Part shown: in pieces, positions 4,417-18,497 of the stretch
Layout of the letters: each line of letters begins with the position of its first letter
Position numbering within the stretch: position 1 is the stretch's first letter
Virus record (IMG/VR): IMGVR_UViG_3300049215_000811
Span: 1 to 21,254 of that record
Strand: one strand, 5' to 3'
Source of the DNA: a virus
Length of the DNA: 21,254 nt
The notes under the pieces: generated by a model
Databases searched by the model: none
What the model saw: only the letters and a program-made list of their open reading frames with translations
What the model was told of the DNA's origin: nothing
Position numbers and translations under genes: made by a program

Positions 4417-4440
4417 CACCTTTTGGGTGGCGGGCCAACG

Positions 4441-4458
4441 ACTTTCCGTGCGGAAAGT
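4441..4458. other. Short palindromic hairpin after portal
   Basis: ACTTTCCG-TG-CGGAAAGT is a perfect 8-bp stem, extendable with a bulge by CCA/TGG outside it. It lies in the 134-bp gap between portal and the next gene. It differs from the heptad arrays seen in most later gaps, so this junction does not carry that element. It may be an mRNA-stabilising or weak terminator hairpin; no T-run follows. Confidence 0.4.
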
Positions 4459-4550
4459 TGGCGGCTGGCCGGGGCGAACGCGCCGGGCTCGGTGCACCGG
4501 GCCCGATGTCAAAATAACGGCCGGTGGGCCGGATTGGTGGGGAGGGTTCG

Positions 4551-5036: not shown

Positions 5037-5050
5037 GACCGGGGATGGGG

Positions 5051-5176
5051 GAAGAATCCAGGGACCCAAAGGGTACCCCGAATCCAGAATCCAGAAGGGG
5101 GTTACGGGGTGCTAGGCGGGGCTTCTGGATTCTGACTTCTGGATTCTGGATTCTTCGGGGGGATTCTGGATTCTTG
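5051..5176. repeat. Mirrored GAATCCA heptad array, gap 4551 gene/capsid fusion
   Basis: The left arm (5051-5097) has GAATCCA units interrupted by the 32-bp insert. The right arm starts at 5122 with CTTCTGGATTCTG and carries the complementary units, plus a further GGATTCTGGATTC block at 5161-5173. A variant unit (TTCTGAC) occurs in the right arm. The spacer reads GGGGTTACGGGGTGCTAGG and resembles spacers in other gaps. The array fills most of the 159-bp gap and ends about 20 bases before the next gene. Confidence 0.85.
5054..5085 (-). repeat. 32-bp KpnI-containing insert, copy 1 (inverted orientation)
   Basis: This is an exact reverse complement of the three later copies. The core reads GGGTACCCTTTGGGTCCC on the minus strand and is bounded by GGATTC at both ends. 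It sits in the left arm here and in the right arm in the other three gaps. Confidence 0.9.
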
Positions 5177-5195
5177 GGGTGAAGGGGGTAGGGTC

Positions 5196-7586
5196 TTGGT
5201 TGTGGATTTGGGGACTCGGGTGTTGGAGGCCGAGTTGAGCGAAGCGGAGCGCTCGCGGTTGCCGGCGGAGGATTTCGCGGTTCCGCACAAGCGCATGCTG
5301 CCGATTCACGATTTACACCACGCCCGGTTGGCGTGGGACATGCTGGACCGGACGCACGGCCTGGAGCACTACGAGCGTGAGGATGCCCGCCACCGGATCG
5401 CCCGGGCTTTGCACCGGATGGGGCACACGTTCGGCGAGGGAACCGAGGCGGAGGCGCGCCGGCAGCTGGCGGACGGCGAGGGCGGGCGGGCGCTCGAAGC
5501 GGTGGTGATTGACGAGGCTAACCACGTCGTCGAGGTGACCATTGCCCGTCCCGGTACCAGCCAGAATGGGTACATCTATTCGGAGTCGGTGCTTCGGGAA
5601 GCAACGCCGTTGTGGAACGGGGCGCCGGCGTTTCTGGATCACCCGACCGCTTTGGACCTGACGCGGGCGGGCTCGCGGAGTCTGCGTGACCTGGTGGGCG
5701 TGTACGAGGCGGCGCGCTACGAGCCGGGCCGGGGAATCCGGGCGCACCTGCGGCTGAGCGGGAATGACCACGGCGCCTACGCCACGATTCGGGAGGCGAT
5801 CGAGGCCAAGGCGGGCGGTCGGGTGTCGCCTCCGGTGGGGATTTCGGCGGACTGGCGGCTGCTGCGGGCGCCGGCGCCACCGGCGCAAGACGGCAAGCCG
5901 CGCTGGCAGGTTCAAAGCGTGCTCGGGGTGAACTCGGGCGATCTGGTGATTCGGCCGAGCGCGGGCGGTTCGTTCGATCGGATCGTTGAGGCGACGGTGG
6001 GCGAGCCGGTGTATTGGGGCGCGAATTTCCTCGGCGGAAGTCGGGGTGAAGGTGAGGGCGGTGCCTTGGGTGGTTCTGGAGCGGCCGCGGCCGGTTCGGC
6101 TGGGGCGGGGGTGGGTGTGGCTGGTGCATCGGCGAGCGCGCCGGGTGCTGGGGGAGCTGCGGCGGCGGCTGCGGCGGGTGGGGGCGTGGGCGTCCGCGAG
6201 GGCGTTACGGTCGACGCGGCGTTTCAAAGCGCCGTGGATCGGGCGGTTGAGGCGGCGCTGGCGCCGATGCGCTCGCAGTTCGCCGGCGCCCAGCTGGAAG
6301 CGAAGCTGACGGCGAGCGGTTTGCCGGAGGCGGCGAAGGTTCACCTTCGGAAGCAGTTTGCCGGGCGGGTCTTCGAGTCGAGCGAAGTGGACGGGGCGAT
6401 CGACGGGCTTCGGGGTCTGCTCGGGACGGTCTTCGGCCAGTCCAGCATTCGGGGCGTTGGCGGGAGCATTCTTGATCCGGGCGTTCGCCAGGGCATCACG
6501 CCCCTGGATAAGGTGCAGGCGGCGTTCGATCGTTTGTTTGGCCTACCGGTGCCGACCGAGCTGGCCGGGGTGCCGCGTCTGACGGGCATTCGGGAAGCCT
6601 ACGTGCTGGTGACCGGCGACAAGTTCTTTGACGGCCGGTACCACTGGGAAGAGTCGATCGTTCGTGAGTCCAATGAAGTCACGACGTCGGTTCTGGCGAA
6701 CGTGGTCTTGAACAGCATGACCAAGCGGCTGATTCGGGACTACCAGGCGCAGCCGAAGTGGTGGGAACCGTTCACGATCAAGGTGCCGGTCGTGGACATG
6801 AAGCAGCAGAATCGGATCCGGCTCGGCGACTTCGCGAGCCTGTCGAGCGTGTCGGAAGAGGCGGCCTACCAGAACGCGGCCTGGGGCGACGCGCGCGAAA
6901 ACTACACGCCGACCAAGTTCGGTAACCTGGTCGTGGTGACGCTCGAAACCTTCCTGAATGATGACCTGCACGCCATCGTTCGGATTCCGACGAAGATCGC
7001 CCACGCTGCGGTGGTGACGATCAACGAGCAGGTTGCGAACCTGTTCACCCAAAGCTCGGGTACCGGCCCGACGATGAGCGATACCTACCACGTCTTCGAC
7101 GCGAGCAACCACCAGGGGAACACGTCAACGAGCTCCACCTACGATCTGTCCAGCTCGGCGCTGCAAAGCGCGATGACGGTTCTGGAGAAGATGCAGAACA
7201 CGGCGAGCAAGCGGATCGGGGTGCGGGGCAAGTACCTGCTGATTCCGCCGGATCTCCGCTGGACGGCTGCCGTCATTACCCAGAGCCAGTACGCCTCCGG
7301 GACGGCGAACAACGACATCAACCCTCTGGCGGGGGCGATCGTGCCGATCGTCGTTCCGCAGTTCACGACGGCGTACCAGTGGTACTTGCTTGCTGACCCG
7401 GCGCAAATCGAGAGCATCGAGATTGGCTTCCTGAACGGGCGCGAGGAGCCGGAGCTGCTCGTTCAAGACAACCCGACGGTGGGGAACGTCTTCACGAACG
7501 ATGCGATCAGCTACAAGGTCCGGCACATCTACGGTCTGGGCTGGCTGGATTACCGTGGCGCGTTCGCGGCCCTGCCGACGAGCTAG
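5196..7586 (+). CDS. Prohead protease / HK97-fold major capsid protein fusion
   Basis: The 796-residue product joins two head functions in one chain. Residues 105-275 are a prohead serine protease-like domain (VIDEANHVVEVTIARPGTS...), with the likely catalytic His149 in FLDHPTA and Ser217 in VGISADW. A Gly/Ala-rich linker (about 278-332) follows, then a helical delta-like scaffold segment (about 335-420, AAFQSAVDRAVEAAL). From about 434 comes an HK97-type capsid domain (TPLDKVQAAFDRLFGL... YHWEESIVRESNEVTTSVLANVV... GLGWLDYRGAFAALP). Protease and capsid fused in one polypeptide is a described architecture in some phages; the protease presumably releases the mature capsid domain by cutting in the scaffold region. 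The start may be TTG 5196 or GTG 5202; both follow GAAGGGGGTAGGG. Identification is strong for the capsid and good for the protease. Confidence 0.88.
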   Translation: MVVDLGTRVLEAELSEAERSRLPAEDFAVPHKRMLPIHDLHHARLAWDMLDRTHGLEHYEREDARHRIARALHRMGHTFGEGTEAEARRQLADGEGGRALEAVVIDEANHVVEVTIARPGTSQNGYIYSESVLREATPLWNGAPAFLDHPTALDLTRAGSRSLRDLVGVYEAARYEPGRGIRAHLRLSGNDHGAYATIREAIEAKAGGRVSPPVGISADWRLLRAPAPPAQDGKPRWQVQSVLGVNSGDLVIRPSAGGSFDRIVEATVGEPVYWGANFLGGSRGEGEGGALGGSGAAAAGSAGAGVGVAGASASAPGAGGAAAAAAAGGGVGVREGVTVDAAFQSAVDRAVEAALAPMRSQFAGAQLEAKLTASGLPEAAKVHLRKQFAGRVFESSEVDGAIDGLRGLLGTVFGQSSIRGVGGSILDPGVRQGITPLDKVQAAFDRLFGLPVPTELAGVPRLTGIREAYVLVTGDKFFDGRYHWEESIVRESNEVTTSVLANVVLNSMTKRLIRDYQAQPKWWEPFTIKVPVVDMKQQNRIRLGDFASLSSVSEEAAYQNAAWGDARENYTPTKFGNLVVVTLETFLNDDLHAIVRIPTKIAHAAVVTINEQVANLFTQSSGTGPTMSDTYHVFDASNHQGNTSTSSTYDLSSSALQSAMTVLEKMQNTASKRIGVRGKYLLIPPDLRWTAAVITQSQYASGTANNDINPLAGAIVPIVVPQFTTAYQWYLLADPAQIESIEIGFLNGREEPELLVQDNPTVGNVFTNDAISYKVRHIYGLGWLDYRGAFAALPTS

Positions 7587-7599
7587 GACGGGGGACGGG

Positions 7600-7697
7600 G
7601 AAGAATCCAGAAGCCAGAATCCAGAATCCAGAAGGGGGTTAGGGGGCGTGTTGTGCTCGGGGCTTCTGGGTTCTGGATTCTGGCTTCTGGATTCTTC
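7600..7697. repeat. Mirrored GAATCCA heptad array, best-paired copy
   Basis: The left arm 7600-7634 and right arm 7663-7697 are 35 bases each and pair at 34 positions around a 28-base spacer. A non-consensus unit (GAAGCCA in the left arm) is matched by TGGCTTC at the paired place in the right arm. The left arm starts 14 bases after the capsid stop. The remaining sequence to 7816 (about 120 bases) holds no gene I can support. Confidence 0.9.
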
Positions 7698-7816
7698 GGT
7701 GGGACATCTTCTGCCGGTGCTTCCAGGGGAATCGGGGTCTCCTCTGGCCCGGCGCATTGGGGCCGGCTGCGTCTAGCCATCCGTGGCCGGCCATTCTTTT
7801 GGGTGAGGGGGTCGCG

Positions 7817-8320
7817 TTGTTTGGACAGTTTTTGGCCTTGGTTTGGTCGCTATTGGCCGTTGTGGCGGTTTTCCTGCTGACTCGGGGAATGGCATCGACG
7901 ACGTTCGGCGCGGTGCAGGTGACGGACTCGCACTCGGGGACGCCGACGACGCTGGAGGCGAGCCATATCTCCGAGTGGCAGGTCTTCCTCGCGGGCAACC
8001 AGAGCACCGGGACCAAGAAAGCGCAGTACCTGGTTCCCTACGCTGGCACCATCGTGGACGTTCGGGCTTACGCTGACACGGCGCCGGCCACCCAGAGCAT
8101 CGTTCTGGATCTGATGCAGAACGGGACGACGATGTTTTCGACGACGGGGAACCGGCCGACGATCGCGGCGAGTGGGCACGCCAGTACGACGACGCTACCG
8201 GACGTGGTGGCGGTGGCGGCGGGGGATCGGCTGCGGCTGGACGTGATCCAGGTCGGCACGGGCACGGTGGGCGCGGATCTCACCTTTACGGTGTCGATCA
8301 AGCGGGCGCACGTCGCGTGA
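7817..8320 (+). CDS. Small beta-rich phage structural protein, possibly with N-terminal membrane helix
   Basis: From TTG 7817 (behind GAGGGGG, five bases) the product is 167 residues. It opens with one strong hydrophobic helix (FGQFLALVWSLLAVVAVFLL), then a Thr/Ser/Val-rich beta domain (DSHSGTPTTLEASHISEW, ATQSIVLDLMQNGTTMF, AGDRLRLDVIQVGTG). An alternative start at ATG 7889 would remove the helix and give a 143-residue soluble protein, but its ribosome-binding site is weaker. The beta domain resembles the simple jelly-roll or Ig-like folds of decoration, head-fibre or tail-appendage proteins. Position after the capsid favours decoration. Exact role unknown. Confidence 0.65.
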   Translation: MFGQFLALVWSLLAVVAVFLLTRGMASTTFGAVQVTDSHSGTPTTLEASHISEWQVFLAGNQSTGTKKAQYLVPYAGTIVDVRAYADTAPATQSIVLDLMQNGTTMFSTTGNRPTIAASGHASTTTLPDVVAVAAGDRLRLDVIQVGTGTVGADLTFTVSIKRAHVA

Positions 8321-8325
8321 TTGTG

Positions 8326-8425
8326 GAAGAATCCAGAATCCAGAATCCAGAATGGGTTACGGGGGGGTGCTGGGTGGGGCTTCTGGATTCTGGATTCGGG
8401 GTACCCTTTGGGTCCCTGGATTCTC
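8326..8425. repeat. Mirrored GAATCCA heptad array, gap 7817/8450 genes
   Basis: The left arm 8326-8353 has three clean GAATCCA units. The right arm 8380-8425 has TTCTGGATTCTGGATTC followed by the 32-bp insert and a final TGGATTCTC. The spacer contains GGGTTACGGG and GGTGCTGGGTGGGGC. The next Shine-Dalgarno (GGAGGGG, 8441) follows within 20 bases. Confidence 0.88.
8392..8423 (+). repeat. 32-bp KpnI-containing insert, copy 2
   Basis: Identical to the copies at 8860 and 11839 and to the complement of the copy at 5054. It contains GGGTACCC and GGGTCCC separated by TTT. Confidence 0.9.
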
Positions 8426-8449
8426 GGGGTGGGTCGGGGTGGAGGGGCA

Positions 8450-8797
8450 ATGTCGGGCGCGATGGTGACGATTACTGGCACGGTGACCGGTGGGCCGGCC
8501 GGGGGCAAGTTCTTCGGCGGCTCGGTGTTCTCGTCTTCGGCGATTGGGGAGACGCTGGACCTGGTGTTGAGCTCGGGCGACACCACGGTGAGCGTGCCGA
8601 GTGGCGCGACGGGGGTACTGATTACGCCTCCGGCGACCGGGGGATCGACGTACAAGCTGAAGGGGGCCGGGGGTGATACCGGCGTTCAGCTGCACGCCAC
8701 GAACCCGACGCTGCTATGTTTGGCGAGCGGGCAGACGAGCATCATTATCAACTCGGCGGGGGCGTGCACCGGGGCCATGGAGTTTAGCTTCTTTTGA
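8450..8797 (+). CDS. Small beta-rich phage structural protein
   Basis: The 115-residue product starts at ATG 8450 with GGAGGGG four bases upstream. It is almost entirely Gly/Thr/Ser/Val with alternating hydrophobics (SGAMVTITGTVTGGPAGG, GETLDLVLSSGDTTVSV, QTSIIINSAGACTGAMEF), the signature of a small all-beta domain. The overall make-up resembles the neighbours at 7817 and 12699, so these may be related decoration, head-fibre or appendage proteins. No catalytic motif or membrane segment is seen. Family not recognised. Confidence 0.65.
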   Translation: MSGAMVTITGTVTGGPAGGKFFGGSVFSSSAIGETLDLVLSSGDTTVSVPSGATGVLITPPATGGSTYKLKGAGGDTGVQLHATNPTLLCLASGQTSIIINSAGACTGAMEFSFF

Positions 8798-8800
8798 CGG

Positions 8801-8900
8801 GAATCCAGAATCCAGAATCCAGAGTGGCGTTACGCGGTTGGGTGGTGTTCTGGGCCTCTGGATTCGGGGTACCCTTTGGGTCCCTGGATTCTGGATTCTG
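8801..8900. repeat. Mirrored GAATCCA heptad array, gap 8450/8925 genes
   Basis: The left arm 8801-8825 has three GAATCCA units ending in a variant GAG. The right arm starts CTCTGGATTC at 8856, mirroring that variant, then continues through the 32-bp insert to two more units, ending at 8900. The spacer contains GGCGTTACGCGGTTGGGTGG, related to spacers in the other gaps. The left arm begins three bases after the stop codon. Confidence 0.88.
8860..8891 (+). repeat. 32-bp KpnI-containing insert, copy 3
   Basis: Exact copy, sitting in the right arm of the array with heptad units on both sides. Confidence 0.9.
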
Positions 8901-8924
8901 GGGGCGGGGCTGGTGGGAGGGGCG

Positions 8925-9593
8925 ATGGGCGTGACGCTGTTGACCGCGATGGAGACCAATGTTCGGACGGATCTGAAGGACCTGGACGCCTCGGCGTACC
9001 TGTGGACGACGGCGGAGATTGATCGGCACATCGCCCACGCGGTGAATGACTATCAGCGGCTGATCCCGGCGGTGGGGTCGCTGGTTCTGGTGGTGGAAAG
9101 CTCGGCGAGCGCGGGGCCGACCACGCCGATTACGACGCGGCAGGTTGTTCCGCACGGCGGGGATTACCTGTGGACGCTGCGGGTTGAGTACCCAATCGAC
9201 CAGGACCCGCCGACCTACGTGGTGTTTCGGGAGGAGCTGCCGGACGCGGGCAGCCTGTATTTCCCGGTGGGCGACCCGCCGAACGTCGGGGACAATCTGC
9301 GGATCTGGTATGCCAAGGCGCACGTTCTGACGACGGCGGAGTCGACAATTCTGACGGAGCACGAGGAGCTGATTGCGCTGGGGGCGGTGGCCTACGCGGC
9401 GACGGCGGCGACGCGGTACGCGGTGGGTCGGCTGAACGCGTCGGCCTGGACGCCCCGGGGCTTGCAGCTTTTCGCGCAAGAGCGGATGGCGGCGTACCAG
9501 GGCTGGCTGGGCGAGCTGAAGGCGAGCTATAGCGCGAGTGGGCTGCCCATGCCTCAGTGGGGGGATTACCCGTCGAACTGGATCCAGGTCTAG
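8925..9593 (+). CDS. Probable phage head-tail adaptor/connector protein
   Basis: The 222-residue product starts at ATG 8925 with GGGAGGGG just upstream; GTG 8931 is a weaker alternative. The N-terminal 45 residues (TDLKDLDASAYLWTTAEIDR, then HIAHAVNDYQRLIP) follow the pattern of phage adaptor proteins, in which a site in the genome is cut into small helices that bind beneath the portal. A beta-rich middle (YLWTLRVEYPIDQDPPTYVV) and a long C-terminal helix bundle (EELIALGAVAYAATAATRYA, ELKASYSASGL) complete it. The position after the capsid and before the hub protein fits a connector. The call rests on pattern and order, not on a firm family match. Confidence 0.6.
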   Translation: MGVTLLTAMETNVRTDLKDLDASAYLWTTAEIDRHIAHAVNDYQRLIPAVGSLVLVVESSASAGPTTPITTRQVVPHGGDYLWTLRVEYPIDQDPPTYVVFREELPDAGSLYFPVGDPPNVGDNLRIWYAKAHVLTTAESTILTEHEELIALGAVAYAATAATRYAVGRLNASAWTPRGLQLFAQERMAAYQGWLGELKASYSASGLPMPQWGDYPSNWIQV

Positions 9594-9595
9594 GT

Positions 9596-9645
9596 GAGTG
9601 ACGAGTGACGAGTGGCCGAACCGTCCTTCTCGTCACTCGTCACTC
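9596..9645. repeat. Mirrored GTGACGA heptad array
   Basis: The arms 9596-9612 and 9629-9645 (17 bases each) are perfect complements: GAGTGACGAGTGACGAG against CTCGTCACTCGTCACTC, with a 16-base spacer. The element uses a different 7-bp unit from its neighbours but the same layout, starting three bases after the stop. The next gene's Shine-Dalgarno (GGGAGG) follows within about 10 bases. Confidence 0.9.
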
Positions 9646-9664
9646 GTTTGTGGGAGGTGAGGCG

Positions 9665-11758
9665 GTGCTGAGCTTAAGCGGGACCCTGAAGGCGGCGCAG
9701 CAGGCTTATGACGTCGAGCCGTTGGTGAGCGCGTTGGTGGGCGATGTGCCGCCGGAGGTCCCGCGGCTCAGCGAGCTCACGCCCATGTATAACGGTTCCG
9801 AGCCGGACGCGCCTTTCGAGGCGTGCTTTACGGCGGCGGGGACGATCGGGCGGGCCTACCTGGGCGGGGGAACGCTCTACGTCCAGGTGGTCGCGCCGCC
9901 GGGGAACCAGACGGCGTGGTCGAGCTGGACTGCTCTCGACGCGAGCGCCGGGAATTGGGCGGGGACGCAGCAGGTGGCGCTGGCAGGCTCGGCGAGCGAT
10001 GGGATAATCACGACGTACTGGGTGGCTGCCGATGGGCACACGATTCGGTGGGCCCAGTGGAACGGTTCGGCTTGGGGATCGGTGCAGACGCTGGTGGATG
10101 CCGGGGTCGGCTTCCTGGTGTCGGGGCTAGCGGCGAGTGGGTTGGATCCGACTCCTCGGCTGTTCTACATCATTGCCGGCGGGGCGGCATACGAAACGCA
10201 TTTGGTGAGTGGGCCGAATACCTGGAGTGCGCCGGTGGGCGACGGCGGGCGCTACAGTAGCCCGATGATCGGGGCGGACTACTTGAGCGCTCCGGCACCG
10301 GGGGGCGCTGGGGACTGGTACGTCCTAATTTGCGCTGGCTCTCCGACGGCGATTTCCGTGGAGCGGTTCAACGTGACGAGCGGGCTGGCCGGCTGGCAGG
10401 GGGCGCCGGCCGCGCTGCTCTCGGCGGGGGTGGGGACTGGCTATAGCTATGCGTACCCTCGGCTGGCGGAAGCCCGGATCGATTGCCTGCGGGCGGTGGT
10501 GAGCTGGAGCGAGACGGCGCCAAGTCCGATCGGGACGGCGGCGCAGATCGCCTTTACGCCAACCCAGAGCGCCGTGCTGGGCGTGGTGCCCTGGCGTTAC
10601 GTGGCGACGCACGGAGTTCGGGTCTTTCACGACCTGGCGAGCCCAGCCTACTGGTGGATCCTGACCAGTAATCAGGCCTATCGGGCGCTGGCGGATAGCG
10701 CGAGCAACCCGGGGGCGCGGGTGCTGTTCGACCAGGACGCGATTGTCGAGCTTGAGGTTGATTTGACCGGCATTAACCGTCCGGGGCGGGGCACCCTGAT
10801 TGTGCTGAACGAGGGCGGCGCGCTGAAGGACGCCGGGATCCCGGGGCAGATTCATCAGGCGCTGCGCCAGTGGTCGCAGGTGGCGGTGAGCCTGGGCTAC
10901 CACGGGAGCGCGGGCGATGAGGTCGTCTGGCAGGCGCCGCTGTGGATCGAGGGGATTGTCTTTCACGACGAGGTCGAAGGCGAGCAGCCTCTGGTGACGC
11001 TGCATTTGGTGGACGGCTGGGGCATTCTGGATCTCGTCCGGGCACGCTCGACGATCACGTATACAAACCAGACCGTCGATTACATCCTCCAGCGGATTCT
11101 CTGGCACGTCTGCGGGTCGCTTTCCCTCACCGGTAATGCGCGGCTCACCGGGCTGACGCTGGCGAGCTTCACGATTCGGGCGGGAGAAAGCCTCGGCGAC
11201 GTCGCGCGGCGGCTGTGCGACCTGGGCGCCGTGGCGCTGGTCTTCCGGTCTCTCGCGTCTTCGGCCGACGGCACCGGCTGGGACTCGGTGGGAATTGCCG
11301 CGGTGAACCGCGCGACCGGGGCGAGCGCGTACAGTTACGGACCGAGCGGGGGGAGCCAGCACCCGGTGTTGCAGAGCGAGTTCGAGCCAATGGCGGTGCC
11401 GAGCGCGACCGGGGTGGAGGTGGCGGGGTCGAGCACCTATAGCGAGGTGCGGAACTGGACGCCGACGTGGTTGCTCTGGCGGGATTTGCGCTCGAGCGTG
11501 GTCGATAAGACGCTGGACACCCAGGACAAGACGGACTCCGTTGCGGGGTATCTGGCTCAGCTTCTTGTCCCCGAGGCGGTGAGCGGGGCGATCACGGTGC
11601 TGGCGAACGTGGGTCAAGAGCTGGCCGACCAGGTGGACGTGACGATCGCCACCGCGCCGGTGAACGGGATGGTTTGTTCGGTGTCGGGGATCCTGACGAG
11701 CTACCACCAGCGCGACGGGCGGATCCTGCAGACGATCGCGCTGGAGGGATCGAACTAG
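9665..11758 (+). CDS. Tail hub-like structural protein with N-terminal propeller-like domain
   Basis: The 697-residue product starts at GTG 9665 behind GGGAGGTGAGG. Residues 40-330 hold repeated beta blocks with Trp (TAWSSWTALDASAGNWAG, HTIRWAQWNGSAWGSVQ, NTWSAPVGDGGRYSSP), like a beta-propeller or lectin-like domain. From about 355 (DQDAIVELEVDLTG) the pattern changes to that of gp27/gpD-type hub proteins: ordered beta-strand pairs, PLWIEGIVFHDEVEGEQPLV, a helical FTIRAGESLGDVARRLCDLG element and a C-terminal ILTSYHQRDGRILQTIALEG strand. It would form the distal tail hub or adsorption platform. The OB-fold protein encoded next is the usual partner of such hubs. The hub assignment is inferred; a receptor-binding role for the propeller is possible. 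Confidence 0.6.
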   Translation: MLSLSGTLKAAQQAYDVEPLVSALVGDVPPEVPRLSELTPMYNGSEPDAPFEACFTAAGTIGRAYLGGGTLYVQVVAPPGNQTAWSSWTALDASAGNWAGTQQVALAGSASDGIITTYWVAADGHTIRWAQWNGSAWGSVQTLVDAGVGFLVSGLAASGLDPTPRLFYIIAGGAAYETHLVSGPNTWSAPVGDGGRYSSPMIGADYLSAPAPGGAGDWYVLICAGSPTAISVERFNVTSGLAGWQGAPAALLSAGVGTGYSYAYPRLAEARIDCLRAVVSWSETAPSPIGTAAQIAFTPTQSAVLGVVPWRYVATHGVRVFHDLASPAYWWILTSNQAYRALADSASNPGARVLFDQDAIVELEVDLTGINRPGRGTLIVLNEGGALKDAGIPGQIHQALRQWSQVAVSLGYHGSAGDEVVWQAPLWIEGIVFHDEVEGEQPLVTLHLVDGWGILDLVRARSTITYTNQTVDYILQRILWHVCGSLSLTGNARLTGLTLASFTIRAGESLGDVARRLCDLGAVALVFRSLASSADGTGWDSVGIAAVNRATGASAYSYGPSGGSQHPVLQSEFEPMAVPSATGVEVAGSSTYSEVRNWTPTWLLWRDLRSSVVDKTLDTQDKTDSVAGYLAQLLVPEAVSGAITVLANVGQELADQVDVTIATAPVNGMVCSVSGILTSYHQRDGRILQTIALEGSN

Positions 11759-11759
11759 C

Positions 11760-11872
11760 GAAGAATCCAGGAGTCAGAATCCAGAATCCAGAAGGGGGGT
11801 GCGAGGGCGGATCTGGCGCTGGGCTTCTAGATTCTGCTGGATTCGGGGTACCCTTTGGGTCCCTGGATTCTC
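11760..11872. repeat. Mirrored GAATCCA heptad array, gap hub/OB-fold gene
   Basis: The left arm 11760-11794 contains a variant GGAGTCA unit among GAATCCA units. The right arm 11824-11872 starts CTTCTAGATTCTGCTGGATTC and carries the 32-bp insert. The same GGAGTCA variant appears, inverted, in the right arm of the 15707-15811 array, pointing to copying between gaps. Confidence 0.88.
11839..11870 (+). repeat. 32-bp KpnI-containing insert, copy 4
   Basis: Exact copy, in the right arm of the array, about 20 bases upstream of the next ribosome-binding site. Confidence 0.9.
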
Positions 11873-11899
11873 GGTTGGGCTGTTGGGCCGGGAGGAACA

Positions 11900-12292
11900 G
11901 TGGCAAAGAGCACGCCCGGGCGTTCGCACGCGGGCAAGGGTCTGAAGGTGACCTACGGACCGGGCGGGGTGCCGACGATCACGGTACCGAAGCCGAAGGC
12001 GAGCAGCGCGTCGAAGAAGGCGACGGTCCACAAAGCGGCGAAGCCGAAGCCGACGTCGGCGAGCGCGGGGCACGAGCCGGCGATTTATCGGAGCCACGCG
12101 ACGCTGGAGAGCTTCGACGCGGCGAGCTATACGGCGACAATCCAGCTAACCCGGAGCCCGGACACAACGGTGGCGGGCGTGCCGGTGAGTCGGGCGATTA
12201 GCTCGGGGTTGCTGACGGCCGGGGTAACGGTGGCGGTGATCTTCTTCGATCACCACAACTCGGCCGACGCGATGATCGTTGGGGTGCATTAG
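11900..12292 (+). CDS. Baseplate/tail OB-fold-like protein
   Basis: The 130-residue product starts at GTG 11900 with GGGAGGAAC upstream. The first 60 residues are basic, Lys/Ala/Pro-rich and probably flexible (KPKASSASKKATVHKAAKPK). Residues 65-130 form a compact beta domain: TLESFDAASYTATIQLTRSP, then TTVAGVPVSRAISSGLLTAG, then VTVAVIFFDHHNSADAMIVG. This follows the OB-fold pattern of gpV/gp45 and related baseplate spike proteins, with the SYTATIQL strand, an I/VPVSRAI turn, and a final FFD...DAMIVGV strand pair. It follows the hub gene, as such proteins usually do. The spike needle or enzymatic domain of larger relatives is absent. Confidence 0.6.
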   Translation: MAKSTPGRSHAGKGLKVTYGPGGVPTITVPKPKASSASKKATVHKAAKPKPTSASAGHEPAIYRSHATLESFDAASYTATIQLTRSPDTTVAGVPVSRAISSGLLTAGVTVAVIFFDHHNSADAMIVGVH

Positions 12293-12294
12293 CG

Positions 12295-12357
12295 AGCAAC
12301 GCGTGACCAGAAGGCGAGGCCCTCGGGGTCTCGCCACGTGTCCGACGTTACTCGTTC
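12295..12357. repeat. Degenerate heptad-type inverted repeat with inner hairpin
   Basis: An inner hairpin GGCGAGGCCC-TCG-GGGTCTCGCC (12313-12335, one G-T wobble position) lies between CGAGCAACG on the left and CGTTACTCG on the right, which are complementary at eight of nine positions. The outer pieces resemble worn GTGACGA-type units. The gap is 132 bp. This looks like a decayed or independently varied version of the arrays in the other gaps. Confidence 0.5.
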
Positions 12358-12424
12358 GAGAGCTTTCGCGCCGAAAGAGGTCGAGCTGCGGGTTCAACCG
12401 CGGTTCAACCGTTGGGGGTGGGTG

Positions 12425-12673
12425 ATGGATCCTCGAGCGTTTTTCGGTTTGGCCGGGGCGCCGCTAATCATTGCCTTGGTGCAGCTGGCGAAGCTGACGT
12501 TTCCGGGAACGCCGCAACACTGCTGGCCAGCGGTAACCCTGGCGGTAGCGGTGGTCGGCAATCTGTGTCTGGCAGCGCTGCTTGGCAGCGACCTGGGCAT
12601 CGGGGCATTGGTGGGCGTCGTCACGGGGCTGTCGGCCAGCGGCCTCTACAGCTACGCCACGGTGGGGAAGTAG
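12425..12673 (+). CDS. Holin-like small membrane protein
   Basis: The 82-residue product starts at ATG 12425 behind GGGGGTGGG. It has two or three hydrophobic segments: LIIALVQLAKLTF near the start, AVTLAVAVVGNLCLAALLG in the middle and IGALVGVVTGLSASGLYSYA near the end. Small size, multiple membrane spans and a place in a phage operon with a lysin downstream fit a holin, which would permeabilise the membrane and let the lysin reach the wall. No sequence motif is specific for holins, so this is an inference from size, topology and context. A longer frame begins upstream but its early residues read through hairpin DNA. Confidence 0.55.
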   Translation: MDPRAFFGLAGAPLIIALVQLAKLTFPGTPQHCWPAVTLAVAVVGNLCLAALLGSDLGIGALVGVVTGLSASGLYSYATVGK

Positions 12674-12698
12674 GCCGGGGAGCCCGGGAGGGTGAGCG

Positions 12699-13064
12699 AT
12701 GCAGGGAATGTTCGACAAGCTGGGCCGGCTGGTGGTGACCGAGCAGATTGGTCAGCCGGTCCAGGGGGACGCGGGGCCGATCACGGATACCACGCCGACG
12801 ACGCTGGTTGCGGCGCAAGGGTCGGGGGTTCGGGCGTACCTGACCAATTTGATAATCAGTAACTCGTCGGTGACGGACACGGTGGTTGCCCTGAGCGGGC
12901 TGGACTCCGGGGTGACGATGCATTTCCCGGCGGCCGGGTCGATGGGTGGGTGCGCGATCGAGTTCAACCCGCCGCTGGCGAGCGCGCCGAATACGGCGCT
13001 GGTGGTGACGTGCTTGACGACCGGGACGAGCACCTACGTGTCTGGCTCGGGCTACGCGTATTGA
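12699..13064 (+). CDS. Small beta-rich phage structural protein
   Basis: The 121-residue product starts at ATG 12699, 25 bases after the holin-like stop, with GGGAGGG nearby. It is Thr/Val/Ser-rich and likely all-beta (TPTTLVAAQGSGVRAYLTNL, then IISNSSVTDTVVALSG; MHFPAAGSMGGCAIEFNPPL). The strand pattern resembles that of small phage appendage and fibre-attached domains. No enzyme motif is present. This is the one gap in the cluster without a hairpin array, so it may be tightly co-translated with the holin-like gene. Function unknown. Confidence 0.65.
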   Translation: MQGMFDKLGRLVVTEQIGQPVQGDAGPITDTTPTTLVAAQGSGVRAYLTNLIISNSSVTDTVVALSGLDSGVTMHFPAAGSMGGCAIEFNPPLASAPNTALVVTCLTTGTSTYVSGSGYAY

Positions 13065-13068
13065 GGGC

Positions 13069-13157
13069 GGGAGTAGAGAATACGGAATAGAGGGGAGAGA
13101 ATGGGACGGGGGCCAGGTTTCTCCATTCTACGTTCTCTCTTCTCTATTCTCGATTCC
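13069..13157. repeat. Mirrored GAGAATA-type heptad array, degenerate
   Basis: The left arm begins near 13070 (GGAGTAGAGAATACGGAATA) and the right arm ends at 13157. When folded, about 25 of 36 positions pair without a gap, so the layout is kept although the units have drifted. The following Shine-Dalgarno and GTG start come within 30 bases. Confidence 0.75.
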
Positions 13158-13183
13158 TGGGGGCGGTTTCTGGGGAGGGGGCG

Positions 13184-15010
13184 GTGAGCTGGAATAACGA
13201 GCATTCGACGGACTTTCACAACACGTCGAGCGTTGGCGCGGTGGGGGCCGGGTCGACGTTGTACGACGGGTGGATCGACGCGGTTGGGAGTTTGTTCTCG
13301 ATCGATAGCTCCGGGCGGCTGGTGGCGTCGGGATCGGCGAGCGGGTCGACGTCGGGCCTGGTGCGGCCGAGCGGGGAGGCGCGGATCAGCCAGCGGATGG
13401 TGCTGACGCTGGCGAGCTGGGCGAACCCGGCGGGCACGATCAATATGCGGCTGCGCTGGCAGGATACCCACAATTGGTACACCTGCGAGATTACGCAGAA
13501 TAGCCTGGCGTTCTACGGCGCGGTGAGTGGCACGATTAACCAGCTGGGGAGCACCCAGAGCTTTAGCAACCTGGTGGCCGGGCACAGCTATACGTTGGAG
13601 TTCATCTGTGCCGGTTTGAGCCCGACGCGGCTGACGGCGACCTTGACCGACACGACGACCAGCACGGTGATTGTGAACGCCTACGCCGTGGCGGATACGA
13701 GTAACGGGCCGCAGAAGGCAGGCAGCTACGGAATTGGGAGTAACGGCGGCTTTACGGAGCGGGTCCAGGCCGATTGCTACAACCAGCCGCAAACGAGCAT
13801 CGCGGTGAACGCCAGCGGGCCGTACTACTCGCCCTATACCTGGGAGTACGACGGGGGCGGGAACCCGGCCAGCAATAACATTGGCGCCTCGGCGACCAAG
13901 GTTCGGACGAACAACGCCGGCGCGTACATCAAGATCAACTGGACCGGGATGGTGCTCTGGCTGAACTACAACCAGGCGCCCTACGCGGCGGACGGGGACT
14001 ATCCGGGGCTGCTGGTGAGCACGGATTACGGGCCGTGGGGGAGCCAGATCTACCCGAGCTCGGCGGACGGCGGCTCGAAGATCCTGGTGGCGCTGCCGAC
14101 GGATTCGGCGCACGTCACGACGATCTACGTTGCCAGCTGGCAGAACATCGACGTGGCGGAGCGCTGGAGCTTGCCGGCGATTGGCGGGAGTTACTCGGCG
14201 GCGCCGTATAGCTGCCTGGAGATCACCGGCTTCGTGATTGAGGGGTCCGGGACGCTCCAGTCGTATACGCCGAAGAGCAAGAAGCTGCTGGTTTACGGCG
14301 ACTCGATCACTGAGGGTCTGCACTCGAGCGCCAACGATTTCACCAAGCAGGACGCGCGGACGACCTACGTTCTTGGACTGGCGGCGCTGTTCGGAGCGGA
14401 GTACGGCGTGATTGCCTGGTCGGGGGCGGGTATCACGGTCGGGGGTAGTGGGAACGCTCCTAGCCTGCAGTCGAGTTGGAACTACTTCCGGAGTGGGGCG
14501 CTTCGGACGTATAGCGGGCTGATCTTACCGGCTCCGGACAACGTCTTTGTGGCCGCGCAGGCCAACGATAGCCTGAACGGGGTCAGTAATAGCACGATCA
14601 CGTCGGCGCTCAATACGCTCCTGGCGGCGATCGCGACCGCGTGCGGGAGCGCGGTCGGCTACCTGGCGGTGGAACCGGGGCGGTTCGCGAAGACGGCGAC
14701 GTTGGCGGCGACGTTGCCGGCGACGTGGTACGCGATCGACGGCGGGCAGGACTCGGCCTACGGACTGACGGACAACCCGGCGGGCGACGGCGACGGCTTC
14801 TACGGGTCGGACGGCTTTGGCGGGAGCAAGCCGTTCGGGGGCGCGGCGAGCTGGCGGAGCTACGATACGGCGGGGCACGGGGACGGCGGTCACCTGAGCA
14901 TCGCGGCGCAAATGGAGTACTGCATGGCGGTGGGCCAGCAGATTCTGACGCGGATTCTGGGGCAGGCGAGCCCGCGGGTGCCGAACCTGAGCGGGGGAAT
15001 GGGGGGCTGA
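13184..15010 (+). CDS. Tail fibre/spike protein with C-terminal SGNH esterase domain
   Basis: The 608-residue product starts at GTG 13184 behind a run of G-rich ribosome-binding sequence. Residues 1-180 are Ser/Thr/Gly-rich beta (STLYDGWIDAVGSLFSIDSS, INMRLRWQDTHNWYTCEI), like a jelly-roll or concanavalin-type carbohydrate domain. Residues 180-365 form a second beta domain. From about 366 an SGNH hydrolase domain begins: block I VYGDSITEG (Gly372, Asp373, Ser374 nucleophile), block II WSGAGITVG, block III QANDS (Asn461), block V DGGHLS (Asp567, His570). Such esterases de-acetylate or cleave surface glycans during adsorption. All four blocks are present, so it is probably active. Confidence 0.8.
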   Translation: MSWNNEHSTDFHNTSSVGAVGAGSTLYDGWIDAVGSLFSIDSSGRLVASGSASGSTSGLVRPSGEARISQRMVLTLASWANPAGTINMRLRWQDTHNWYTCEITQNSLAFYGAVSGTINQLGSTQSFSNLVAGHSYTLEFICAGLSPTRLTATLTDTTTSTVIVNAYAVADTSNGPQKAGSYGIGSNGGFTERVQADCYNQPQTSIAVNASGPYYSPYTWEYDGGGNPASNNIGASATKVRTNNAGAYIKINWTGMVLWLNYNQAPYAADGDYPGLLVSTDYGPWGSQIYPSSADGGSKILVALPTDSAHVTTIYVASWQNIDVAERWSLPAIGGSYSAAPYSCLEITGFVIEGSGTLQSYTPKSKKLLVYGDSITEGLHSSANDFTKQDARTTYVLGLAALFGAEYGVIAWSGAGITVGGSGNAPSLQSSWNYFRSGALRTYSGLILPAPDNVFVAAQANDSLNGVSNSTITSALNTLLAAIATACGSAVGYLAVEPGRFAKTATLAATLPATWYAIDGGQDSAYGLTDNPAGDGDGFYGSDGFGGSKPFGGAASWRSYDTAGHGDGGHLSIAAQMEYCMAVGQQILTRILGQASPRVPNLSGGMGG

Positions 15011-15015
15011 CGTGG

Positions 15016-15111
15016 GGAATCGAGAAGAGAGAATAGAGAATAGAGAAGCGAGAACGAGGACGAGGGCTCGGTATCTCGATTCTCGATTCTCGATTCTCTA
15101 TTCTCGATTCC
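15016..15111. repeat. Mirrored GAGAATA heptad array
   Basis: The left arm 15016-15052 and right arm 15075-15111 are 37 bases each and pair at 33 positions, without gaps, around a 22-base spacer. Both ends carry GGAATC / GATTCC. The main unit is GAGAATA on the left and its variant GAGAATC on the right. It begins six bases after the stop. Confidence 0.9.
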
Positions 15112-15137
15112 TGTGGTGGGGCTGAGAGGAGGGGACG

Positions 15138-15692
15138 GTGAAGCTGGCGTTACGGCCGGGGATCACGAGCTACCGGACGCGGATCTTCGTGCAGGACACC
15201 CGGCAGGCCAACATTCAAGGGCTGACCGGGCTGGCGTACAACAGCTCGGGCTTGAAATGGTACTACTTTCGGGACGGGGACACGTCGGCGACGTCGATTA
15301 CGCCGGCGAACACGAGCCTGGGGACCTGGACGAGTGGCGGGTTCAAGGAGATCGACGCGACGAACCTGCCGGGGTGGTACGAGCTGGGGATTCCGAACGC
15401 CTGCCTCGCGACGGGCGACGTCGGGATGAGTCTCTACGGGGCGGCGAATATGGGCGTCGTGAACGTGGAGATTCAGCTGCAGGGTCTGCCGATCGACCTG
15501 GCCCAGCCGATCGGGGCGGCGGCCTGGTCGGACACGATCAAGGGCGCGCTGAACGGAGCCCTGAGCACCGCGGCGGGTCGGTGGACCCAGGCCGGCACGG
15601 ACTTCAAGACGCGCTGCGCGCAAGATGGCACGGTGTTCCGGGACTTTACGTTGGACTCGTCGACCAATCCGCAGGATCGCACGCCGAACTAG
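15138..15692 (+). CDS. Phage appendage/fibre domain protein
   Basis: The 184-residue product starts at GTG 15138 behind GAGGAGGGG. It contains a domain I recall from many uncultured phage appendage genes: FVQDTRQANIQGLTGLAYNS, then WYYFRDGDTSATSITPANTS, then SGGFKEIDATNLPGWYEL, PNACLATGDVGMSLYGAAN and VVNVEIQLQG. This reads as a beta-sandwich with a central GGF.EID.tn.PG.Y.l core. A C-terminal 45-residue tail may mediate assembly. It lies between the esterase spike and a Gly-rich protein, consistent with a tail or fibre accessory. Enzyme function is not expected. Confidence 0.65.
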   Translation: MKLALRPGITSYRTRIFVQDTRQANIQGLTGLAYNSSGLKWYYFRDGDTSATSITPANTSLGTWTSGGFKEIDATNLPGWYELGIPNACLATGDVGMSLYGAANMGVVNVEIQLQGLPIDLAQPIGAAAWSDTIKGALNGALSTAAGRWTQAGTDFKTRCAQDGTVFRDFTLDSSTNPQDRTPN

Positions 15693-15706
15693 GGCGGGGG
15701 ACCGGG

Positions 15707-15811
15707 GAAGAATCCAGAATCCAGAATCCAGAATCCAGAATGGGGTGACGTAGTTGGGTGCTGGGTGGGGCTTCTGGATTCTGGATTCTGGATTCTGACT
15801 CCTGGATTCTG
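15707..15811. repeat. Mirrored GAATCCA heptad array, longest clean run
   Basis: The left arm 15707-15741 has four GAATCCA units in tandem. The right arm 15771-15811 has TTCTGGATTCTGGATTCTGG, then a variant unit TGACTCC and a final TGGATTC. The variant matches, inverted, the GGAGTCA in the 11760 array. The spacer contains GTTGGGTGCTGGGTGG (15753-15768), a 16-base string found again inside the lysin gene. Confidence 0.9.
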
Positions 15812-15835
15812 GGGGTGGGTCGGGGTGGAGGGGCG

Positions 15836-16096
15836 ATGGCGAATATCGTGGCGGCCGGCCTGGGGACGCGGGCGCTGGTGGCCGGTGGGTTCGGGGACTC
15901 GCACGGTGGCGCGGGCGGTGGGTCGGGTGGTGGTGGCTCGGGTGGGGTGACGGGCCTGCCGCGGATGGTGCTGCTGGGGTTCGGGTCGGGGAGCCTGGTG
16001 GCGCACGGGTACGGCACGGTGATTGTGACGGGGGGCGCGGGTGGCCGGGGGCCGGGGTCCGGTGGGCGGCTGGCGAGCTTAAGGGTTGGCCGGTGA
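15836..16096 (+). CDS. Small Gly-rich phage protein
   Basis: The 86-residue product starts at ATG 15836 with GGAGGGG upstream. Two related beta strips, GLGTRALVAGGFG and GFGSGSLVAHGYGTVIVTG, flank a low-complexity Gly/Ser linker (GGAGGGSGGGGSGG). Short proteins with this LGT.xLVAxGfG pattern are, from memory, frequent near fibre genes of phages, where they may be fibre tips or adhesive caps. The Gly-rich tail ends abruptly at the heptad array, whose first unit contains the stop codon. Role inferred from context only. Confidence 0.55.
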   Translation: MANIVAAGLGTRALVAGGFGDSHGGAGGGSGGGGSGGVTGLPRMVLLGFGSGSLVAHGYGTVIVTGGAGGRGPGSGGRLASLRVGR

Positions 16097-16150
16097 CGAG
16101 TGACGCCCGCAGGAGGCCCACTCGTCACTCGTCGCTCGTCACTCGTCACT
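16092..16150. repeat. Mirrored GTGACGA array overlapping a stop codon
   Basis: The left arm GGTGACGAGTGACG (16092-16105) includes the TGA stop of the preceding gene (16094-16096). The right arm 16119-16150 carries four or more complementary units (CACTCGTCACTCGTCGCTCG...). It uses the same unit as the 9596-9645 array. The next gene starts 78 bases later; that stretch holds a small palindrome TCATCCA-TT-TGGATGA (16185-16200) and nothing else I recognise. Confidence 0.88.
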
Positions 16151-16227: not shown

Positions 16228-17625
16228 GTGGCGCGACCGGGGTTGCACTGGCCAAATACGAGTGGGGTCGACGGGGACGCCCGGGCGCGCTTTCGAGCCG
16301 GCCGCTTTCCGTGGGCCGTGGTGCTCACGGTGACGCCGGCGGCGGAGGCGAGCTGGGCGCGGGCAGGCGGGGCCCGGGTGGTGGCCCGAATCTACGAGCC
16401 GGCCGGGGACCTGGCGGCGCCGGCGGACGTGGCCGAGCGCGCCGAATCTTGGATCTCGGCGTTCGATCCGGCGGGCTACGTCCAGCTCTTGAATGAGCCG
16501 GACGTGGAGTATCCGAGCAAGCGCCCGGAGCAGTTTGCGGTTTGGTGGGACCAGTGCGCGGGGTATCTCCTGCGGCGGTTTCCCGCGCTGCGGCTGGGCT
16601 TCCCGTGTCCTTCGGTGGGCGGACCAACGGATTACCTGCCGCGCGTTGCGGCGGCGGGTGGCCTGACGCGCGCGAGTTTCCTCGCCGAGAGGGGTTATTG
16701 GCAGGGTGCTGGAGGTTGGGTGCTGGGTGGTGGGGCCTCGGCCCGGTGCTGGGAGCGGTCGGCGCCGTATCGGCTGCCGATCGTTCTGACGGAGTACGGA
16801 GACTCCAGTCCGACCACGCCGAAGGCGGCGAAGGCGCAAGAATACCTGGACTATTGCGCGAGCCTGCCGCGGTACGTGGTGCCGGCCGGCGCCTTCATCG
16901 GGGCGGCTGGGGATCCGCGTTGGGATAGCGAAGCGGCCGGCCGGTTGTGGATCGACGACGCGATGTGCCAGCTGATCGGAGCTGGCGAGGGGGTGAGAAG
17001 CGAAGTGAGCGAGCAGAATGTTCGGCGCTATACGGCGCTGATCGAGAAGTACGCCGGGCTGAATCGGCTGAGCGCAAGTATCGTTGCGGGGCTGATCGAC
17101 GTGGAGTCGGGTGGGAATCCGGACGCGACGAGCGCGGACAACGGGACCACGGCGGGTGGTGCCCGGCTGGGGCACGCGCTGGGGCTCATGCAGGTCCTGG
17201 AAGGCGCGTTCAAACCCGGGGAGGATGGCCACGACCCGGAGACGAATCTCCGGGTCGGCTGCGAGATCTTGCGGGCGAAGCTGGACGTGTACGGGGATCG
17301 TCTCGACTCCGGACTGGCGGCGTATTTCGGAGTGGTGGATAGCCAGGGGAATCCGACGGATGCCACCGACCTGACCGGCACGTCCGGCACGCGCTACGTA
17401 CAGCTCGTCGAAGACGCGGCGAAGGTGTTCGCCGACCTGGACGCCGCAGCGGCGTCGCTGGCCGATCCGGACTTTCGGAGCTACGCGCCCCAGACGGGAA
17501 CCTGGCGAGAGGCGGCGGTGAACCTCAAGGGGGTAGCGGACGACGCGCTGGCGCGGGGGCGGCAGCTGGTGAAGCTGGTGGACGACGCGGCGAGCACCGC
17601 CGCCGGGTTGTGGGGCGGCCGATAG
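16228..17625 (+). CDS. Two-domain lysin: clan-A-like glycosidase plus lytic transglycosylase
   Basis: The 465-residue product starts at GTG 16228 behind GGGGTGGAGAGG. Residues 1-240 resemble a TIM-barrel glycosidase of clan GH-A: LLNEPDVE gives the likely acid/base Glu90, and VLTEYGDSS gives the likely nucleophile Glu189. Residues 265-400 are a goose-lysozyme/SLT-like transglycosylase: IVAGLIDVESGGNPDATS with catalytic Glu293, then HALGLMQVL. A helical C-terminal tail (AAAASLADPDF, ALARGRQLVKLVDDAAS) ends it. Both domains would attack cell-wall polysaccharide. As the last operon gene, downstream of the holin-like gene, it is the probable endolysin or a virion-associated hydrolase. No secretion signal is visible, so a holin would be needed for export. 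An odd Gly/Trp-rich stretch (QGAGGWVLGGGASARCWE) lies before the Glu189 motif. Confidence 0.75.
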   Translation: MARPGLHWPNTSGVDGDARARFRAGRFPWAVVLTVTPAAEASWARAGGARVVARIYEPAGDLAAPADVAERAESWISAFDPAGYVQLLNEPDVEYPSKRPEQFAVWWDQCAGYLLRRFPALRLGFPCPSVGGPTDYLPRVAAAGGLTRASFLAERGYWQGAGGWVLGGGASARCWERSAPYRLPIVLTEYGDSSPTTPKAAKAQEYLDYCASLPRYVVPAGAFIGAAGDPRWDSEAAGRLWIDDAMCQLIGAGEGVRSEVSEQNVRRYTALIEKYAGLNRLSASIVAGLIDVESGGNPDATSADNGTTAGGARLGHALGLMQVLEGAFKPGEDGHDPETNLRVGCEILRAKLDVYGDRLDSGLAAYFGVVDSQGNPTDATDLTGTSGTRYVQLVEDAAKVFADLDAAAASLADPDFRSYAPQTGTWREAAVNLKGVADDALARGRQLVKLVDDAASTAAGLWGGR

Positions 17626-18474: not shown

Positions 18475-18495
18475 CGTGAAGCGTGAAGCGTGAAG
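18475..18495. repeat. Three tandem CGTGAAG heptads
   Basis: Three exact 7-bp units sit just upstream of the hairpin and the toxin-antitoxin operon. The period is the same as in the phage-operon arrays but there is no inverted partner nearby. A binding site or slippage-prone tract are both possible. Confidence 0.85.
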
Positions 18496-18497
18496 CG

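Follow-up and report, generated by a model that had tools for sequence, protein, structure and literature searches.

The window analysed in the present work, the 21,254 bases of IMG/VR virus record IMGVR_UViG_3300049215_000811, carries on its + strand (2.9-17.6 kb) the structural operon of a phage, probably of Chloroflexota bacteria, in which ten gaps between the portal and endolysin genes each hold a mirrored heptad element: a left array of tandem seven-nucleotide units and its inverted counterpart on the right, set apart by a spacer of about 15-35 nt. These elements have in common their period, their position behind stop codons, the orientation of their purine-rich strand and their potential to form hairpins; their arms recur from gap to gap, and their units turn over between related phages. 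An earlier note made from the letters alone had described a phage operon here, and profile matches to portal (phrog_10963), capsid with protease (PF25209/phrog_4523), holin (phrog_1299) and SLT endolysin proteins bear this out. Because the genes that flank the operon are cell-like (a histidine kinase at 1265-1831 and an NHL-repeat protein at 19758-21254), the window is likely to be a prophage. The genes, called by a simple codon-usage script, and the elements, entered without a strand and with their RNA folding z-scores, are as follows.

2944..4416, + strand: portal protein gene (phrog_10963, E 8e-32), which has relatives
5048..5168: GAATCCA mirrored element with the insert GGGACCCAAAGGGTACCCC in its left arm (z -4.9)
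5196..7586, + strand: capsid gene with fused protease, start uncertain (5196 or 5235) (PF25209, E 9e-35; phrog_4523)
7600..7698: GAATCCA mirrored element, 35-bp stem with one G-U pair (z -10.1)
8325..8426: GAATCCA mirrored element, insert in right arm (z -3.1)
8450..8797, + strand: small gene with no assigned function, an open reading frame (ORF) with a relative in L007
8800..8902: GAATCCA mirrored element, insert in right arm (z -5.0)
8925..9593, + strand: g7, a conserved structural gene with relatives in L006 and L009-L013
9596..9647: GAGTGAC mirrored element, 17-bp perfect stem (z -5.9)
9665..11758, + strand: g8, a conserved large structural gene, which has relatives
11761..11870: GAATCCA mirrored element, imperfect, insert in right arm (z -2.5)
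12293..12360: decayed inverted repeat, possibly once a GAGTAAC/GAGTGAC element (z -2.7)
12425..12673, + strand: holin gene (phrog_1299, E 1.6e-10)
13072..13158: GAGAATA mirrored element, degenerate (z -3.7)
13184..15010, + strand: GDSL-lipase-like / neck passage structure-like gene (PF13472, E 4.5e-5, under the curated cut-off; phrog_7918)
15016..15111: GAGAATA/GAGAATC mirrored element, 34/38 pairs (z -6.5)
15707..15812: GAATCCA mirrored element, 26-bp perfect stem (z -6.3)
16092..16150: GAGTGAC mirrored element (z -3.2)
16228..17625, + strand: endolysin gene, SLT domain (PF01464, E 2e-10; phrog_669)

The repetition in the window has a single period. Thirteen tandem arrays were detected at a lag of 7 nt and one at a lag of 12, the others falling at multiples of 7, and there were none in the window at lags 4-6, 8-11, 13 or 15; block shuffles of the window yielded a mean of 0.005 arrays and a maximum of one, and no array with a score of at least 12 lies inside any of the window's genes. 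Six of the ten gaps are built from GAATCCA, two from GAGTGAC and two from GAGAATA/C. When folded as RNA, the gaps give z-scores from -2.5 to -10.1 and stems of up to 35 bp, and in the element at 7600 a variant unit, GAAGCCA, occupies the matching place in both arms. In most gaps the array starts between 2 and about 20 nt beyond the stop codon; in the element at 16092, whose left arm consists of two units only, the unit itself provides the stop codon of the gene that ends at 16096. The mirrored, gene-by-gene layout proposed by the earlier note is therefore present at all ten of the places it named, with its constant seven-base unit of differing sequence and its arrays beginning just past the stop, and needs correction only in detail: the third of its three unit families is better written GAGAATA/GAGAATC, the elements that it placed at 11760 and 13069 are imperfect, and the left arm at 16092 is short. 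The gap between the portal gene and g3 (4417-4550) holds a hairpin of another kind, CCAACGACTTTCCGTGCGGAAAGTTGGC, which contains no heptads.

The orientation of the arms follows a rule that is independent of the unit sequence. Among 49 mirrored elements collected from phages and Chloroflexota DNA, 48 could be scored and 45 of these have the purine-rich arm on the 5' side, as do 16 of 17 genome-by-family groups and all 14 unit families, while a control set of ordinary inverted repeats from the same DNA has a purine-rich 5' arm in 104 of 208 cases. Because an inverted repeat is identical on both strands, the rule amounts to the statement that purine-rich units always point inward, to the spacer. 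When one family was scanned for by exact pattern, the purine-first order turned up in two viral contigs and two genomes and the reverse order in none. All p values given here are nominal, since arrays from a single genome have units in common and cannot count as independent, and the family-level counts are the safer guide; parts of the samples designated G001 and G003 were chosen because they contain GAGTGAT.

Unpaired arrays obey the same rule with respect to the gene beside them. Behind stop codons the sense strand is purine-rich in 26 arrays and pyrimidine-rich in 8, and before start codons it is pyrimidine-rich in 9 and purine-rich in 2; the bias persists when only arrays that contain no stop codon on either strand are counted (17 to 3 behind stops and 9 to 2 before starts), so it is not an artefact of ORF calling. 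Some convergent gaps contain two arrays, one for each gene, that differ in unit but are both properly oriented (L142 at 9418 and 9582; L180 at 14310 and 14357), so the direction of replication cannot be the cause there. The position of the arrays is anchored likewise to the upstream stop: in 63 codirectional gaps the median distance from the nearest array is 15 nt for the stop and 68 nt for the next start, and the relative position of single arrays departs from uniformity (Kolmogorov-Smirnov p 2.5e-8). An array comes within 7 nt of a stop in 12 of 15 convergent gaps, and arrays are scarce in divergent ones. The provision of stop codons in all three frames was rejected as a general function of the units, a stop on the sense strand being present in only 25 of 53 genome-by-unit families behind stops. 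The rule probably extends past the Chloroflexota, because the GGGAATC repeats of Xanthomonas lie on average 28 nt past the 5' ORF and 160 nt from the next ORF, and because the G-rich strand of those located downstream of an ORF is the coding strand (PMC4692102). In the window itself, a lone CGTGAAG array at 18475-18497, in the divergent gap before 18553, breaks the rule.

The arms, spacers and flanks of different gaps resemble one another in ways that point to copying. The 19-base insert GGGACCCAAAGGGTACCCC splits four arms, at 5062-5080 (a left arm) and at 8398-8416, 8867-8885 and 11845-11863 (right arms). The spacers of the GAATCCA gaps at 5051, 8326 and 15707 are alike (pairwise z 4.7-5.9) and their flanks are common too, the similarity between the gaps at 8326 and 15707 (z 9.9) running from the hairpin as far as the start codon. 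Over 45 nt the left arm at 5051 is identical to the inverted right arm at 8326, and the best match of the left arm at 11760 is the right arm at 15707. Across unit families the true pairing of arms is better than re-pairing (permutation p 0.006); within GAATCCA, where each arm was likewise expected to match its own partner best, no such preference was found, 388 of 720 re-pairings scoring at least as high as the true one. Because the GAATCCA arms fit their own partners no better than the arms of other gaps, they form a pool common to the gaps, swapped between gaps and strands. This is concerted evolution, by a copying mechanism that we infer from these likenesses, as opposed to separate growth in each gap. 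No sequence is common to all ten elements. The insert GGGACCCAAAGGGTACCCC also occurs in one other viral contig (L161), where it is not accompanied by heptads.

Comparison with related phages shows that the period outlasts the unit. Relatives of the capsid were located in Chloroflexota metagenome-assembled genomes (MAGs) and a few viral contigs, and IMG/VR searches with capsid, portal and g8 added few further phage relatives. In phages whose capsids are 45-87% identical, the homologous gaps hold different heptads or none: CTAGGTT/CTAGGTG in L009, GAGTGAT in L007 and L011, ACGCAAA in L010 and GGGGTTA in L006. Before the capsid gene of L008 (G004 66606-66798) two units are nested symmetrically, GGTGCTA outside and GGGTATC inside, forming a stem about 71 positions long that is closed by a 15-nt loop. 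Since the homologous gaps of the relatives hold other heptads, GAATCCA was rejected as a sequence family common to them, and a sequence family could not be assembled; few other sequences have GAATCCA arrays (2 of 400 Chloroflexota genomes and 3 viral contigs). In L006 the gap before the capsid gene (3735-3790) is occupied by a hairpin that resembles a terminator and has a T run, CCGCTATTTTATAGCGGGTTTTT, in place of a heptad element.

Period 7 is dominant, with many units, in the window, in phage G004 (IMGVR_UViG_3300049215_000802), in the host MAG G001, in G330 and in 20 other Chloroflexota samples. The density of arrays per Mb is 612 in the window, 145 in G004 and about 200 in G330; it is 11 in the unbiased G001 host sample, and 30-41 in G326 and G284, whose samples include sites picked for GAATCCA. 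Strong inverted repeats (score at least 17) occupy 6 of 14 gaps in the window and 5 of 16 in the structural part of G004, compared with 1 gap of 30 in the remaining close relatives and, in the host samples, 2 of 144 codirectional gaps. G004 contains a window-like prophage whose capsid gene is interrupted, at roughly 7.26-64.7 kb, by a second, complete phage about 57 kb long. This guest lacks heptad arrays and, across 20 gaps, strong inverted repeats; heptads are therefore not imposed evenly on all DNA in the cell. The earlier note had held that its proposal would fall if arrays were scattered at random through the host genome, including within genes. Arrays do exist in the host, but they are mostly intergenic and strongly favour gene ends, so the proposal stands on this point. 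Two further observations concern the same DNA: G004 has a rare genic heptad array at 65665-65689, in low-complexity coding sequence for the linker between protease and capsid, and the Chloroflexota contig L142 (G330:C110) carries AGTAGGC, AGTGCAA, GCACTCA and GTCGTCG within a few kb, in a genome that is very rich in heptads.

The earlier note did not recognise this layout, which is only partly new. Heptamers are the most abundant intergenic tandem repeats of prokaryotes (PMC6344855), and their function and prime-number period have been described as unexplained (PMC6344855, PMC4692102); the arrays of the window share the features of this class, with a 7-nt period, other periods rare, and a location between genes. 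Mirrored heptads past the upstream ORF have been reported in Xanthomonas, where GGGAATC repeats are mirrored in 70 of 186 patterns in one species and 75 of 183 in another (Rehm et al. 2015, PMC4692102). Those repeats resemble the present ones in their period of 7, their intergenic position near the upstream ORF and their inverted pairs of purine-rich units converging on a spacer; they differ in that a single unit family is distributed chromosome-wide and has been discussed in terms of G-quadruplexes, whereas here several units that do not form G-quadruplex motifs occur, most gaps of a phage operon hold an element, units are replaced between relatives, and the test of the orientation rule covered both unpaired arrays and a range of unit families. 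The TAACTGA repeats of Beggiatoaceae are likewise intergenic heptads at gene boundaries, but lie mostly directly upstream of starts, with one unit and a single inverted case (MacGregor 2015, PMC4679880). The cyanobacterial STRR heptanucleotides and the GGGGA(C/T)T repeats of Nostoc are also tandem and intergenic, but those of Nostoc form few mirrored pairs and are not found on its plasmids (cited in PMC4692102); a literature search found no phage case of tandem heptads of this type.

Other intergenic repeats show a more distant likeness. The SAS/ESAS sites of cluster K mycobacteriophages are inverted repeats with variable spacers that occupy many phage gaps before different downstream genes, but their 17-bp sequence is fixed and accompanies a 13-bp start-associated site, and they are conserved per gene family among relatives and have neither heptads nor anchoring to stop codons (PMC3203893); sites of this type were rejected here, as the homologous gaps of relatives hold other units or none. 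REP, BIME and REPIN elements (e.g. PMC3116915, PMC3733652) are also short palindromes in gaps, and have been proposed to stabilize upstream mRNA or to block exonucleases, but they are conserved sequence families, while the elements of the window keep only period, pairing and purine side. Integron attC sites were excluded, the ten elements containing two isolated GTTRRRY and no RYYYAAC, and no Rfam covariance model matched in the window. Long hairpins between the cistrons of a phage operon are processed by RNase III in T7. The predicted hairpins of the window are likewise long and intercistronic, but have no common sequence or internal-loop architecture. What is added here is the anchoring to stop codons, the purine-first orientation, and the use of arms as a common pool.

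The explanation that we favour, with a confidence that falls slightly short of even, is that the elements are gene-end heptad minisatellites, which arise by slippage and by the making of inverted copies and then pass a filter at the upstream transcript, the outcome here being purine-first intercistronic hairpins. Arrays of units of about 7 nt would originate and change length through slippage; inverted copies would be made nearby, and the arms, spacers and flanks that recur suggest exchange among the gaps and strands of one phage. Arrays would be retained only at places where the transcript can bear them or put them to use, that is, directly past a stop and with the purine-rich strand as sense, and in a packed operon an array past a stop would usually gain an inverted mate ahead of the next ribosome-binding site. 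The intercistronic transcript would fold, the purine-rich 5' arm, made first, capturing the later pyrimidine-rich 3' arm at once; the resulting hairpin may insulate the upstream message, by 3' protection or by double-strand-specific processing, and may hold loose pyrimidine-rich RNA off the next ribosome-binding site. The unit sequence would be free to vary, because under this proposal only purine bias and pairing matter.

Several results weigh against this explanation. Arm mismatches in the transcribed hairpins have no excess of G-U pairs (24 G-U and 29 A-C) and so give no sign of selection on RNA pairing, and the hairpins cannot have an essential role, strong ones being found in so few gaps of the close phage relatives. 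Values for the accessibility of the ribosome-binding site in the folded gaps are mixed, from 0.11 to 0.92, the hairpins of some host pairs are poor, with spacers of 100-240 nt, and the orientation rule could have its source in a transcription-linked mutational process instead. The role in mRNA processing that the earlier note had allowed for is possible, and stems of 17-35 bp are compatible with candidate RNase III processing sites, but the arm-mismatch test gives it no support. The avoidance of Rho, by purine-first hairpins that would hide pyrimidine-rich RNA, is weakened as a function, because heptads are also carried by cyanobacteria, which are without Rho (PMC13289151).

The main rival, which explains most of the facts equally well and which we nevertheless regard as somewhat unlikely, is that the arrays are a functionless by-product of transcription-linked mutation: RNA past the last ribosome, if purine-rich, would pair stably with its template, and the DNA exposed by such R-loops would slip and template-switch, generating purine-sense arrays and their inverted copies. 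This would account for the gene-direction orientation of unpaired arrays, including those in convergent gaps, and for a fixed period with free sequence, as well as for the missing G-U bias and the rapid turnover and absence in relatives. The R-loops are postulated here, and mutation alone leaves unexplained why the operons of the window and of G004 carry arrays at many times the host density when the guest phage has none. Distinctly less probable is a role as recombination linkers, in which arrays at gene boundaries promote the exchange of cassettes between phages and are kept through successful mosaic recombinants. The earlier note had raised cassette recombination, and part of that suggestion holds: unrelated gene neighbours have gap modules in common, which in one pair extend from the hairpin up to the start codon; arms move between gaps; and relatives differ in the genes that they carry between capsid and g7 and in the g7-g8 interval. 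Arrays are also carried by conserved adjacencies, however, relatives such as L006 gain genes in gaps that have no arrays, and the arrays of host convergent gaps obey an orientation rule that linkers do not need.

The insertion of a mobile miniature element, MITE- or REPIN-like, behind stop codons would fit the related spacers and flanks of the GAATCCA elements, but is very doubtful, since unit sequence, arm length and spacer all vary with only the period constant, the similarity continues into the flanks without a clean end, and single arrays with no mate are common. Intrinsic transcription terminators are more improbable still as an account of strong hairpins directly past stop codons: the elements are not G+C-rich stems followed by a T tract and show no U-tract, a scan of the window found 2 sites against 7.4 expected, none of them at an element, and the operon would be cut after each gene. 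G-quadruplexes, as proposed for Xanthomonas and Nostoc, are already disfavoured and scarcely tenable here; G-rich heptads do occur elsewhere, as with GGGGTTA in L006, but the three units of the window contain no G3 tract, and matches to a G-quadruplex motif appear in only one of the ten elements, outside its units.

A broader reading, less likely than not, can be put forward: the heptad arrays found across bacterial phyla may constitute one general class of 3'-end element, with a period of 7, anchored to the stop, purine-rich in the message and optionally followed by a pyrimidine-rich mate before the next start, which some phages have built into operon-wide intercistronic hairpins. The code common to heptad arrays would in that case be a rule and not a sequence. 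The anchoring and the purine-sense rule link heptads to the transcript of the upstream gene, beyond replication alone. A small operon with ten natural variants, and with relatives that carry other units, offers a compact system in which function can be distinguished from by-product.

The guest phage of G004 is recognizable by a large serine recombinase (PF07508), a terminase (PF04466), a D5 primase (PF08706) and a Mu-like protease (PF10123). The sequence CTCGAAA is shared at its junction with the resident prophage, whose capsid gene the insertion would inactivate.

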